DNA of 59,017 bases, taken from an uncultured Acidimicrobiales bacterium. Its GTDB lineage: Bacteria; Actinomycetota; Acidimicrobiia; Acidimicrobiales; SZUA-35. Where the stretch lies: positions 1 through 59,017 of the forward strand of contig CALHFG010000040.1 of the NCBI GenBank assembly GCA_938029215.1. Direction: 5' to 3'. Positions 38,264-43,146 of this stretch are shown here, piece by piece (position 1 is the stretch's first letter; each line of letters starts with the position of its first letter). The notes under the pieces are model-generated. The model did not search any database, was not told the origin of the DNA, and saw only the letters and a list, made by a program, of their open reading frames with translations. A program made the translations under genes and the position numbers.

Positions 38264-38881
38264 TTAGGGCCGGTCACCCACGTCGGGTCCGACTTCTCGA
38301 GTCTTTTTGAGTTCGAAGAATCCGGGCACGCTCATTACTTTGACCATGCCATCCCAAAGATCCAAAGCCGCTTGACCTCGAGGAATCGGTGTCATCACCG
38401 GACCGAAAATGGCTGCCTGACTCTGGTCGGGGTAGGTGAGAGCGATGATCGGCGTTCCCACATCGTTTCCTACGAGCGCGAGTCCGGCGGCAGTTTCGCT
38501 CTCGACTGCGGCATCAAACGCAGGGTCGTCGAATGCTGCGGCATGAGTTGGATCGATGCCGGCCGCAGTGAGAAGTTCGCCTGCGTCGAATTCGAGAGAC
38601 TTGTCGTGATGGATTCGACGAGACATCTCCCAATACAAGTCCTTGAGAGTGGCGTCCCCTTCGGCCGCCCGAACCGACTCGGTCACCCGGAGAAGATTGT
38701 GGGTGAATTGCAGTGCCTCGTGGTCGCTTTCGTTCTTGATCTTCAAAGAGATCGAGCGGTAGTGAATATCTAGATCCCGGTGCGGGGCAACCTCTTCAAC
38801 CAGCCAACGGCTCGTTATCCAACACCAGGGTCAAATAGGGTCAAACCACTTGTCGACTCGAATCGTTTCGCTAGAAGCCAT
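38264..38881 (-). CDS. Candidate selenoprotein: Rv2466c-like DsbA-fold oxidoreductase with U-P-W-C active site
   Basis: Read from ATG 38881 with TGA as selenocysteine this is a 205-residue protein, the length of mycobacterial Rv2466c (mycothiol-dependent reductase, about 207). The N terminus reads VDKWFDPI-U-PWCWITSRWL: the family's CPWC motif with Sec at residue 17 and Cys at 20. The rest is typical: a HYRSISLK strand, GTPIIALTYP, FGPVMTPIPRGQAALDLWDG and PGFFELKKTR. The frame is open before and after the TGA. A hairpin with a G-containing loop begins 14 bases after it. The ATG overlaps the tdk stop by 11 bases, so it is coupled to tdk. Without recoding only a 16-residue peptide, or a headless protein from a TTG at 38746, would be made. 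Confidence 0.85.
38797..38817 (-). promoter_or_regulatory. Bacterial SECIS-like hairpin
   Basis: Counting from the base after TGA on the minus strand, bases 15-17 pair with 31-33 and 19-22 with 26-29. There is one G-G mismatch between the two stems, a T-G wobble closes the base, and the apical loop is GTT at 23-25. Bacterial SECIS loops sit about 16-37 bases after the UGA and carry a G at the start of the loop (established), so position and loop fit. Confidence 0.65.
38831..38833 (-). other. In-frame TGA proposed as selenocysteine codon 17
   Basis: Codon 17 of the Rv2466c-like gene; it replaces the first, nucleophilic Cys of the CxxC motif. Flanking codons encode F-D-P-I before and P-W-C-W after, which align with the family motif without any gap. 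Confidence 0.82.
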
Positions 38882-39533
38882 GTTCGAACTCTAAGGGCAG
38901 ATCGTCGAGACGCAGCTCATCGAAGAGGGCACGTTGCCGAGCGTCGTCTTTTCCTGCCATCCAATGGGCTCGACAACGAAGGTCGTAGGAAACTTCGGCC
39001 AACGTCTCGCCCGTGTCTCCAACGACCTTTAGCTCGCCGTCGTACACCTGACGACCGTTGACCAAGCGGGCGTTGTGGGTGGCACGCTTCCCACAGAAGC
39101 ATCGGGCCTCGACCTGCAGTTCGTTGCGGGCATCGGCCATTTCCATGAGTCGCTTGGAGCCGGGGAAGAGCTCGCCCTGAAAGCTGGTGAGCAGTCCGTA
39201 AGCGAAGACGTCGATTCGAAGTTCGTCGACGACCCGCGCCAGCTGATCGACCTGGGCTGGCTCGTAGAACTGGGTCTCATCACACACCACCGCATCCAGT
39301 CCGGGACCGGTGCGGTGTACCGATGCGATCATCCGGTAGACGTCGACGGTTGCATTGATAATCTCTGCCTCGGCCTGAATTCCCAGACGACTGGAAACGA
39401 CGCCTTCGTTTCGGTCTAGCTGTGTGATCAGCAAGCACTGGAGCCCACGTTCGGTGAGGTTGTAGTGAACCTGCAGCGCCTGTGTGGACTTTCCCGATCC
39501 CATCGTCCCGAAGAAGAATTGCAACTCTGCCAC
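38871..39533 (-). CDS. tdk: Thymidine kinase
   Basis: 220 residues. Phosphorylates thymidine for salvage. Walker A is GTMGSGKST at residues 9-17; the Walker B/catalytic region is VVCDETQFYEP; the lasso/zinc region has CFCGKRATHNAR and a later RCRAHW Cys. This is the bacterial type II (TK1-like) family with normal length. The last 11 bases overlap the start of the candidate selenoprotein, placing both in one transcript. Confidence 0.94.
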   Translation of the reverse strand: MAELQFFFGTMGSGKSTQALQVHYNLTERGLQCLLITQLDRNEGVVSSRLGIQAEAEIINATVDVYRMIASVHRTGPGLDAVVCDETQFYEPAQVDQLARVVDELRIDVFAYGLLTSFQGELFPGSKRLMEMADARNELQVEARCFCGKRATHNARLVNGRQVYDGELKVVGDTGETLAEVSYDLRCRAHWMAGKDDARQRALFDELRLDDLPLEFEHGF

Positions 39534-41574: not shown

Positions 41575-43146
41575 ATGGCTGATCAACTTACCGACGGACT
41601 CCTGGCTCAAAGCAAGTGGAGTGATGAAGACGTCGCAAACGCAGGCATAGACGTCACCGAAGCCTGGATAGCCAGCATCGGAGGCGGGCTCGGGTCGTTC
41701 GCTCTTGCTCATGTGCTCCGAGTCTCGGGACTTCCGGTGCAGGGACTTACCGTCGTGGGCGACGGGACCAAGCCGGCTCGCACCTATCGATACCTGGCGC
41801 GCAACAGCCAGATTCCCGATGCCGAACGGCTTCGGTCCGACGCTGGAAGCACGATGGACAGCATCTGGGGATTCCCTAGCTACGCCTGGCGGGAAGCGTT
41901 CGCCACCCCCGGCCTGACGAACAAGCTGGCCCCGCTTTGGCAGGTCTTTTCCGAGCCGCTTCTCAGCGACTACTACACACCAAAAGCTGGCCAAGTTTTC
42001 GAGTCGGTCGACCGCGAGTCCCGTCGAATCGGATGGGATCAGATGGTCAACGTCGATTCGGTGCGACTCGTACGCCGTCGGCACGGCGGCGGCTACTTCA
42101 CACTGACCCGTCCCGATACGAATACCGGAAAACGGCGAGTCTTCCGCAGCCGTTACGTCCATGTAGCGGTGGGCTATCCGGGGGTTCGGTTCCTCGCTGA
42201 CCTGCAGGAGTACCGCGAGAAACACAGTGACTACAGCCGTGTCGTCAACGCCTATGAACCGCACGATCAGGTGTATGAAGAGCTACGTCGCCGACCGTCC
42301 ACGGTGCTTGTGCGTGGCAGCGGCATCGTTGCCTCTCGAATCCTCCAGCGGCTGATCGACGATCGAGACAAGCACGGCGCACAAACGACAATCATTCATC
42401 TCTTTCGCAACTACGTTGCCGGCCCACAGGGAGAGAATCCGCGATTCCGACGCCCGGGCAGCAACGGGGTTGCTTACCAGGGATTCAACTTCCCCAAGGC
42501 TGCGTGGGGCGGCCAGCTGAAAGAGGACTTGGAGAAGCTCGATGGAAACTCACGCGTCGATCTGATCAAGAAGATGGGCGGCACCAACACCCCATATCGG
42601 AAGGACTGGGTGGAACAGCTGGAACGGGGAGCCCGGGAAGGCTTCTACCTCCAGCAGGTCGGCACGGTCCAGCGTGTGGAACCCGGACCCGACCAGAGCA
42701 TCCGCACCGTAGTCAAAGGTCAAGACGGCCAGGAACGCGACCTGAACGCCACTGTGGTAATCGACGCCACCGGACTCGAATCCGACCTGACCGAACACCG
42801 ACTTCTTGCCGATCTGCTTGAGCACGGTGGCGCTCAACGAAACGCATTCGGACGGCTGGAGGTTCTCCCCAGCTTCGAGGTTTCGGGCACTCGATCCGAA
42901 CCAGGCCGAATGTATGCCAGCGGCTCGATCACCCTCGGCGGATACTACGCCGGCGTGGACTCGTTCCTGGGCTTGCAGTACGCCGCACTGGCGATTGCCG
43001 ATGACCTCGCCCAGACCGGCGGTGTCCCCCGGCTCGGCGCCACCCGATCGCTCACCGAATGGTGGCGTTGGATGCGCAACCGGGAACCTGTCACCCTTCC
43101 AATCCCTGCGGCTCAGGCCGTTGCGGCCACGGGAGCTCATCGATGA
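41575..43146 (+). CDS. Flavin-type two-Rossmann oxidoreductase-like protein
   Basis: 523 residues, exact family not recognised. It has two dinucleotide-binding motifs: IGGGLGSFALAHVL at about 35-48, and TVLVRGSGIVAS at about 242-253. ATVVIDATGLESD at about 395-407 recalls the third FAD motif of flavin monooxygenases and glutathione-reductase-like enzymes. A GGYYAGVDSFLGLQYAA stretch near the C terminus may close the flavin site. There is no signal peptide. It starts 6 bases after the kinase and overlaps the next gene by 4 bases. A redox enzyme or a flavin/NAD sensor within a kinase operon is the best description. Confidence 0.6.
   Translation: MADQLTDGLLAQSKWSDEDVANAGIDVTEAWIASIGGGLGSFALAHVLRVSGLPVQGLTVVGDGTKPARTYRYLARNSQIPDAERLRSDAGSTMDSIWGFPSYAWREAFATPGLTNKLAPLWQVFSEPLLSDYYTPKAGQVFESVDRESRRIGWDQMVNVDSVRLVRRRHGGGYFTLTRPDTNTGKRRVFRSRYVHVAVGYPGVRFLADLQEYREKHSDYSRVVNAYEPHDQVYEELRRRPSTVLVRGSGIVASRILQRLIDDRDKHGAQTTIIHLFRNYVAGPQGENPRFRRPGSNGVAYQGFNFPKAAWGGQLKEDLEKLDGNSRVDLIKKMGGTNTPYRKDWVEQLERGAREGFYLQQVGTVQRVEPGPDQSIRTVVKGQDGQERDLNATVVIDATGLESDLTEHRLLADLLEHGGAQRNAFGRLEVLPSFEVSGTRSEPGRMYASGSITLGGYYAGVDSFLGLQYAALAIADDLAQTGGVPRLGATRSLTEWWRWMRNREPVTLPIPAAQAVAATGAHR

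Follow-up and report, generated by a model that had tools for sequence, protein, structure and literature searches.

A gene of an uncultured Acidimicrobiales bacterium is predicted to encode a thiol-disulfide oxidoreductase of the Rv2466c family in which a TGA codon, at the position of the nucleophilic cysteine, is read as selenocysteine (Sec). We hold this prediction with high confidence. Selenocysteine appears by far the best reading of the TGA from comparative sequence evidence; this assignment, proposed earlier in a sequence-only reading of the same DNA, is supported by the selenocysteine machinery of the host, the recurrence of the TGA among homologues, a covarying downstream hairpin, co-occurrence with selA and selB, and selection on the codons that follow the TGA.

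The TGA-containing gene and its protein family

The gene lies in a stretch of 59,017 nucleotides (hereafter referred to as the window). The features relevant here are as follows.

38264..38881, minus strand: predicted selenoprotein coding sequence, 205 amino acids with Sec17, Rv2466c-like (PF22234; translation and profile match)
38831..38833, minus strand: in-frame TGA at the nucleophilic-Cys position, predicted Sec (the same codon is TGA in 47 close homologues from 40 genomes, this gene included)
38822..38833, minus strand: UPWC redox motif, TGA CCC TGG TGT, with Cys20 as the predicted resolving Cys
38798..38816, minus strand: hairpin predicted to be a bacterial SECIS, its arms of 8 bases each flanking a GTT loop at 38808-38806 (covariation and folding)
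38264..38746, minus strand: headless 160-codon frame from TTG 38746, without the active site, which ordinary annotation might call
38871..39533, minus strand: thymidine kinase gene (PF00265, E 8.7e-27)

The sequence and its translation confirmed the frame as first described: it starts at ATG 38881, runs through 16 codons to the TGA at 38833-38831, continues as PWCWITSRW and ends with the stop at 38264. Exactly one in-frame TGA occurs in it, and translation of this codon as U gives VDKWFDPI-U-PWCWITSRW, in which the TGA takes the place of the first Cys in CPWC, the motif of the Rv2466c family. The headless frame from TTG 38746, pointed out in the same reading, is also present. The 3′ end of the thymidine kinase gene and the start of the selenoprotein gene share 11 bases, in the window as well as in the corresponding loci of two other members of the genus (L018 and L019), and the two genes are therefore probably co-transcribed.

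The predicted protein matched the whole of the PF22234 (Rv2466c-like) profile with 133.5 bits (gathering score, 27; E 1.2e-38), and PF01323 weakly. A phmmer search matched the PDB sequences 4zil, 4nxi, 4wkw and 5xur with E values of 1e-36 to 1e-38; 4zil, 4nxi and 5xur are structures of Rv2466c, and 4wkw, according to the fold search, is that of its M. leprae relative. The printed alignment with 4zil places the TGA opposite the first Cys of DPLCPWCWITSRW, in agreement with the original assignment. In Rv2466c, Cys19 is the nucleophile and Cys22 resolves (PMC8280269, in excerpt). An AlphaFold model of the protein, with Cys placed at residue 17, had a pLDDT of 93.3 and a pTM of 0.90, and residue 17 immediately precedes a helix (residues 18-31). 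The ten best PDB matches of this model in Foldseek were all Rv2466c or the M. leprae relative, with TM scores of 0.76-0.83 by query length. The modelling thus suggests that the predicted protein has the Rv2466c fold. Among the NCBIfam models, no selenoprotein model scored over its curated cut-off; the single match (E 0.015) scored 15.1 bits, the cut-off being 211.

The closest described system is accordingly Rv2466c itself (Mrx2, a mycothiol-dependent nitroreductase of the DsbA-Mrx1 cluster; PF22234), with which the window gene shares the length, the DPx-[C/U]-PWCWITSRW context and, as modelled, the fold. The two differ in that Rv2466c has the nucleophilic Cys19 where the window gene has TGA, predicted to be Sec, and in that the SECIS-type hairpin inside the coding sequence is a feature of the window gene.

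A paralogue in the genome of the window (L081; G000:C14:43500-45500) carries CPFA, with the nucleophilic Cys present and the resolving Cys absent. Elsewhere in the window, a 523-codon frame on the plus strand (41575-43146) resembles an FAD/NAD oxidoreductase by eye and had no Pfam match at E 0.001.

Proposed reaction and the source of electrons

Cys relatives of the protein have been studied biochemically. The attack of their first Cys yields an internal disulfide or a mixed one with mycothiol; the enzymes, which protect against oxidative stress, are restored by mycothiol, mycothione reductase and NADPH (PMC8280269 and PMC11841060, both in excerpt). For the Sec form, we propose the following course of events. 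SelA, SelB and the tRNA-Sec of the same genome would allow the TGA to be read as selenocysteine, SelB with Sec-tRNA binding the hairpin at 38816-38798 and the ribosome inserting Sec rather than terminating. On the pattern of the Cys relatives, the selenol of Sec17 would then attack an S-mycothiolated protein or a disulfide, and the resulting selenenylsulfide would be resolved by Cys20 or by a second thiol; mycothiol, mycothione reductase and NADPH would probably return the enzyme to the reduced form. Selenocysteine has a lower pKa than cysteine and undergoes reversible oxidation more easily, properties that would speed the first, attacking step. The physiological role is likely to be the repair of proteins during oxidative or metal(loid) stress.

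The host of the window likely has mycothiol, as judged from profile matches: its best matches to mshA and mycothione reductase lie far above the next ones, with 368.5 bits against 98.5 bits for mshA, and 510.3 bits against 279 bits for mycothione reductase. Both remain under the curated cut-offs (462.5 and 635.65, respectively). The mshC match had 424.4 bits; the cut-off of 485.1 was reached by none of the 99 genomes surveyed, and the second mshC matches listed for other genomes mostly fell lower, at 366 to 282 bits, the exceptions being two high second copies, in G050 and G096, and one in G091 at 400 to 414 bits. A link of the enzyme with mycothiol is plausible.

We give appreciable, though minority, weight to a different source of electrons: Sec is inserted, and thioredoxin or another thiol, rather than mycothiol, reduces the enzyme, which would then be a general disulfide or metalloid reductase. 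The sub-threshold scores of mshA, mshC and mycothione reductase speak for it, as does the occurrence of TGA-bearing members in three Desulfobacterales, mycothiol being seemingly confined to actinomycetes (PMC11841060, in excerpt). In addition, NCgl2478 of C. glutamicum accepts electrons from thioredoxin as well (PMC8280269, in excerpt). The distance of the host's mshA and mycothione reductase matches from the next ones, together with the strength of its mshC match, speaks against it. Whichever donor serves in the window's host, the members in Desulfobacterales suggest that this kind of enzyme may have partners other than mycothiol.

Evidence for the predicted decoding of the TGA as selenocysteine

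We surveyed 99 genomes, including that of the window, of which 82 had a homologue match. TGA at the same codon was found in 47 close homologues from 40 of the 99 genomes (the window's own included), seven of which hold two such genes. The TGA position was checked for all 47 genes, and every one of them reads DPx-U-P(W/F)CW, three being of the UPFC form; one TGA gene of G014 also has a TAG, located before its first ATG. Among the strongest matches listed, distant relatives with TGA at the same column occur in at least two further genomes (G042 and G089). A 'TGA' in G047 proved to be an ordinary gene end (alignment position 209) and was left out of the count. Close full-length Cys forms are present in six genomes (G007, G008, G010, G017, G018 and G019). 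Of the genus members searched, five in number, two (G001 and G002) have selA, yet no close homologue with either TGA or Cys, which speaks against the Sec reading. Since the TGA recurs in so many assemblies, a sequencing error, which had been named as an outcome that would overturn the assignment, is very unlikely, and we rejected it as the source of the TGA.

In the three genus members (the window, L018 and L019), the frame is conserved on either side of the TGA and contains no other stop. In each, the stretch from the preceding stop to the TGA has a sole start codon (ATG, GTG and ATG, respectively), 15 or 16 codons upstream of the TGA. Downstream of the TGA, the dN/dS values for the three pairs (NG86) were 0.11, 0.13 and 0.14, with dS near saturation (1.56-1.81); third-position mismatches amounted to 103/169, 98/165 and 99/174. 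The codons downstream of the TGA are, on this sequence comparison, under purifying selection. Decay of the gene in relatives, another such outcome, was not seen: in view of the low dN/dS values and the frames free of further stops, a pseudogene was rejected.

These observations bear on the view that the TGA is a true stop, the functional product being the headless one from TTG 38746 or the gene being a pseudogene. Headless products do occur in the databases, where 35 of the best 120 of 1080 relatives begin past the motif, and the window frame from TTG 38746 is open for 160 codons. A true stop would nevertheless leave unexplained the upstream 15 or 16 codons, the start codon and the 11-base overlap kept in the three genus members, the purifying selection beyond the TGA, and the retention of TGA by 47 genes. 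Furthermore, in an alignment with 15 Cys relatives, W12, D14 and P15, all ahead of the TGA codon, are invariant. We therefore consider a true stop very improbable.

A search of the genome for the Sec machinery, which the sequence-only reading had called for, detected all four components over their cut-offs: tRNA-Sec (65.3 bits; cut-off, 47), selA (398.4 bits; cut-off, 267.9), selB (279.6 bits; cut-off, 242), which selA immediately precedes, and selD (272.4 bits; cut-off, 125). Among the 40 genomes with a close TGA homologue, all have a selA match (a fragment at a contig end in G027) and all have selB over the cut-off, G026, G034 and G038 only when neighbouring matches are summed. Close TGA homologues are absent from all 25 genomes that have no selA match (Fisher p 1.9e-7, uncorrected for kinship and hence too small, because the genomes are related). 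tRNA-Sec was detected at 58 bits or more in 34 of the 40 genomes, and incomplete assemblies are a likely reason for the lack of such a match in the other six (G016, G019, G023, G026, G027 and G034). The selD of the host lies inside a 728-codon frame (L080; G000:C80:13000-15800), the SelD part of which has Cys, not Sec; the first half of this frame resembles an NAD(P)/FAD oxidoreductase by eye.

A bacterial SECIS has been described as a stem-loop that closely follows the TGA and has a G in its small apical loop (PMC1088965, in excerpt), and the candidate hairpin matches this wording in its place and in the G of its small loop. The stem-loop with a GTT loop, noticed at the outset, is present at 38816-38798 and starts 14 bases 3′ of the TGA. 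When the T of the TGA is numbered 0, the arms 17-24 and 28-35 pair around the GTT. For comparison we used 163 pattern matches, some contigs being represented twice; dropping 9 and adding 5 by coordinates left 159 rows, 119 of them distinct. The hairpin proved to be conserved in the close forms: 882 of 952 cells pair in the 119 distinct Sec rows, against 171 to 547 when the partners were slid by 1 to 3 bases, a control that somewhat favours the structure because the structure derives from the same sequences.

In the 110 rows with Thr and Val there, both bases of the pair 20-32 are silent third positions. They pair in 108 of these 110 rows (GC, 85; AT, 10; GT, 7; TA, 3; CG, 2; TG, 1), the two others being AC and CC. 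Of all 119 rows, 113 keep this pair (mean of the shuffles, 87.6) and 111 keep the pair 17-35 (mean of the shuffles, 102.6); for either pair, none of 20000 shuffles scored as high. At least 21 changes of state of the pair 20-32 were counted on a phylogeny of 128 Sec rows. A tree-aware test of its covariation using independent pairs, which has low power, was not significant (8 pairs; 3.9 concordant, 0.0 discordant; median p 0.125).

The window copy of the hairpin is weak by itself. It has 7 of the 8 pairs, with a G-G mismatch at 20-32, whereas L018 and L019 have all 8, with C-G there; in single-sequence folding it folded no better than its shuffles (z -0.27). The z values of other examples were -2.41 (L018), -1.77 (L034), -0.60 (L066), +0.59 (L129) and -0.12 (L038, a Cys form). 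It is the comparative evidence, rather than the window hairpin alone, that carries the claim. Of the 8 pairs, 1 to 6 are present in ten Cys forms, among which are distant paralogues. Distant TGA forms keep 2 (L129), 3 (L160), 3 (L186), 3 (L068), 2 (L069) and 6 (L098) of the 8 pairs in the same register, and the best fold of L129 is a different one; the loss of the register speaks against the Sec reading, and these forms are Sec candidates. L072, a Cys form of G010 within a mostly Sec clade, keeps 6 of the 8 pairs, perhaps as a relic of a Sec-to-Cys change.

A readthrough that inserts a residue other than Sec, be it Trp, Cys or a near-cognate one, is scarcely credible: any readthrough would leave the frame open, but the column holds Cys, not Trp, in the 15 aligned relatives, every genome holding a close TGA form has selB as well as a selA match, and these forms have a SECIS-type hairpin at a fixed distance.

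Relation to described selenoproteins, and spread of the predicted Sec forms

Sec-containing thioredoxins and glutaredoxins, to our knowledge, do not have the helical insertion of Rv2466c. They are other families, having the UxxC motif in common with the protein described here (Table 1, PMC13188914). Nearer to it are the 'DsbA-like' UxxC selenoproteins, which belong to the same superfamily, share the UxxC motif and are filed under the general DsbA domain, PF01323, which the proteins described here also match. The comparison covered motif and domain, and the published sequences (NIP15863.1 and AACY01178397) may overlap with the present proteins. An inventory published in 2026, covering 119 families and subfamilies of prokaryotic selenoproteins, gives 'DsbA-like protein form 1' with PF01323, UxxC and its reference 59 (PMC13188914). 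In excerpts, a Sargasso Sea study of 2005 reports 9 DsbA-like UxxC sequences, COG2761 (PMC1088965), the GOS study DsbA 1 to 3, the third with UxxV (PMC2398784), and a 2006 study 4 DsbA-like selenoproteins (PMC1794560); the family is listed again in a 2022 review (PMC9312934, in excerpt). The words Rv2466c and mycothiol are absent from the main texts of PMC13188914, PMC1088965 and PMC2398784, as is PF22234 from that of PMC13188914. A Frankia paper mentions selenoproteins and mycothiol in general terms only, as far as its excerpt goes (PMC4531530).

The supposition that the family had not been described as a selenoprotein therefore stands in part. No Rv2466c-type selenoprotein was found among the matches listed in the literature searched, which included few subscription papers, but the broader DsbA-like UxxC class has been in print since 2005. 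Because some of the published DsbA-like sequences may belong here, we place the gene in a known enzyme family, as a Sec variant that is new, and do not propose another kind of system. The mycothiol-linked reductases NCgl2478 and NCgl2339 of C. glutamicum, likened to it by description and placed in the same DsbA-Mrx1 grouping, are biochemically tested Cys enzymes with CPFC, whereas three of the Sec genes found here are UPFC (PMC8280269, in excerpt, for the C. glutamicum enzymes). If the prediction is true, a selenium-dependent enzyme would be added to the mycothiol system, the described members of which use cysteine (PMC8280269 and PMC11841060, in excerpt).

Exchange between Cys and Sec at codon 17, for which the sequence-only reading had proposed a check, was found. 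Cys motifs occur in 85 of the best 120 of the 1080 database relatives, as CPWC (57) or CPFC (28). On a FastTree phylogeny of 181 of 223 rows, those more than 90% alike having been dropped, the Sec/Cys label changes 11 times, or 7 times when only starred branches are counted, the changes being counted without regard to direction. Natural Cys/Sec pairs exist within genomes (G017 and G019) as well as between relatives, so that the old question of what advantage Sec has over Cys becomes directly testable. The 13 best database matches (P0002 to P0014), including a 91%-identical relative (P0002), are all stored headless, without the active site, which amounts to a systematic annotation error.

A pattern scan of named genomes, which gives a lower bound of the host range, returned at least 119 stretches, at least 110 of them homologous. 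The homologous stretches listed comprise 89 from Acidimicrobiia, 5 recorded as Actinomycetes, 3 from Actinomycetota without class, 10 without a named phylum and 3 from Desulfobacterales. Of the remaining 9 of the 119 listed, 8 resemble chance matches, and L100, truncated by an end, seems to be a homologue. The distant TGA forms L129, L098, L068 and L069 all match PF22234; the L098-type forms, L068 and L069 cluster in the FastTree phylogeny, with a warning of long branches. We incline, by a modest degree, towards a wider proposal: a large uncatalogued family of Sec-dependent mycothiol reductases ('Sec-Mrx2') would extend across Acidimicrobiia. Within this family, Sec and Cys would have replaced one another many times. 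It would include a Desulfobacterales branch as well as another deep Sec branch, would connect selenium with the low-molecular-weight thiol chemistry of actinobacteria and would lie in the databases as headless fragments.

Three UPFC genes (L054, L055 and L057) fall within a Cys clade of the tree that is rich in CPFC, a placement that suggests a separate Cys/Sec switch. A distant Acidimicrobiia Sec branch has FYFDPL-U-PWCWQTARW (L098, L103, L106, L109, L110, L131, L139, L146, L153, L154 and L198); in L098, its tested example, which matches PF22234 as noted above, the hairpin pairs that are lost are the lower ones. The TGA-bearing Rv2466c homologues of Desulfobacterales, outside the actinobacteria, are L129, L160 and L186, and the frame of L186 stays open for 432 codons past the TGA.
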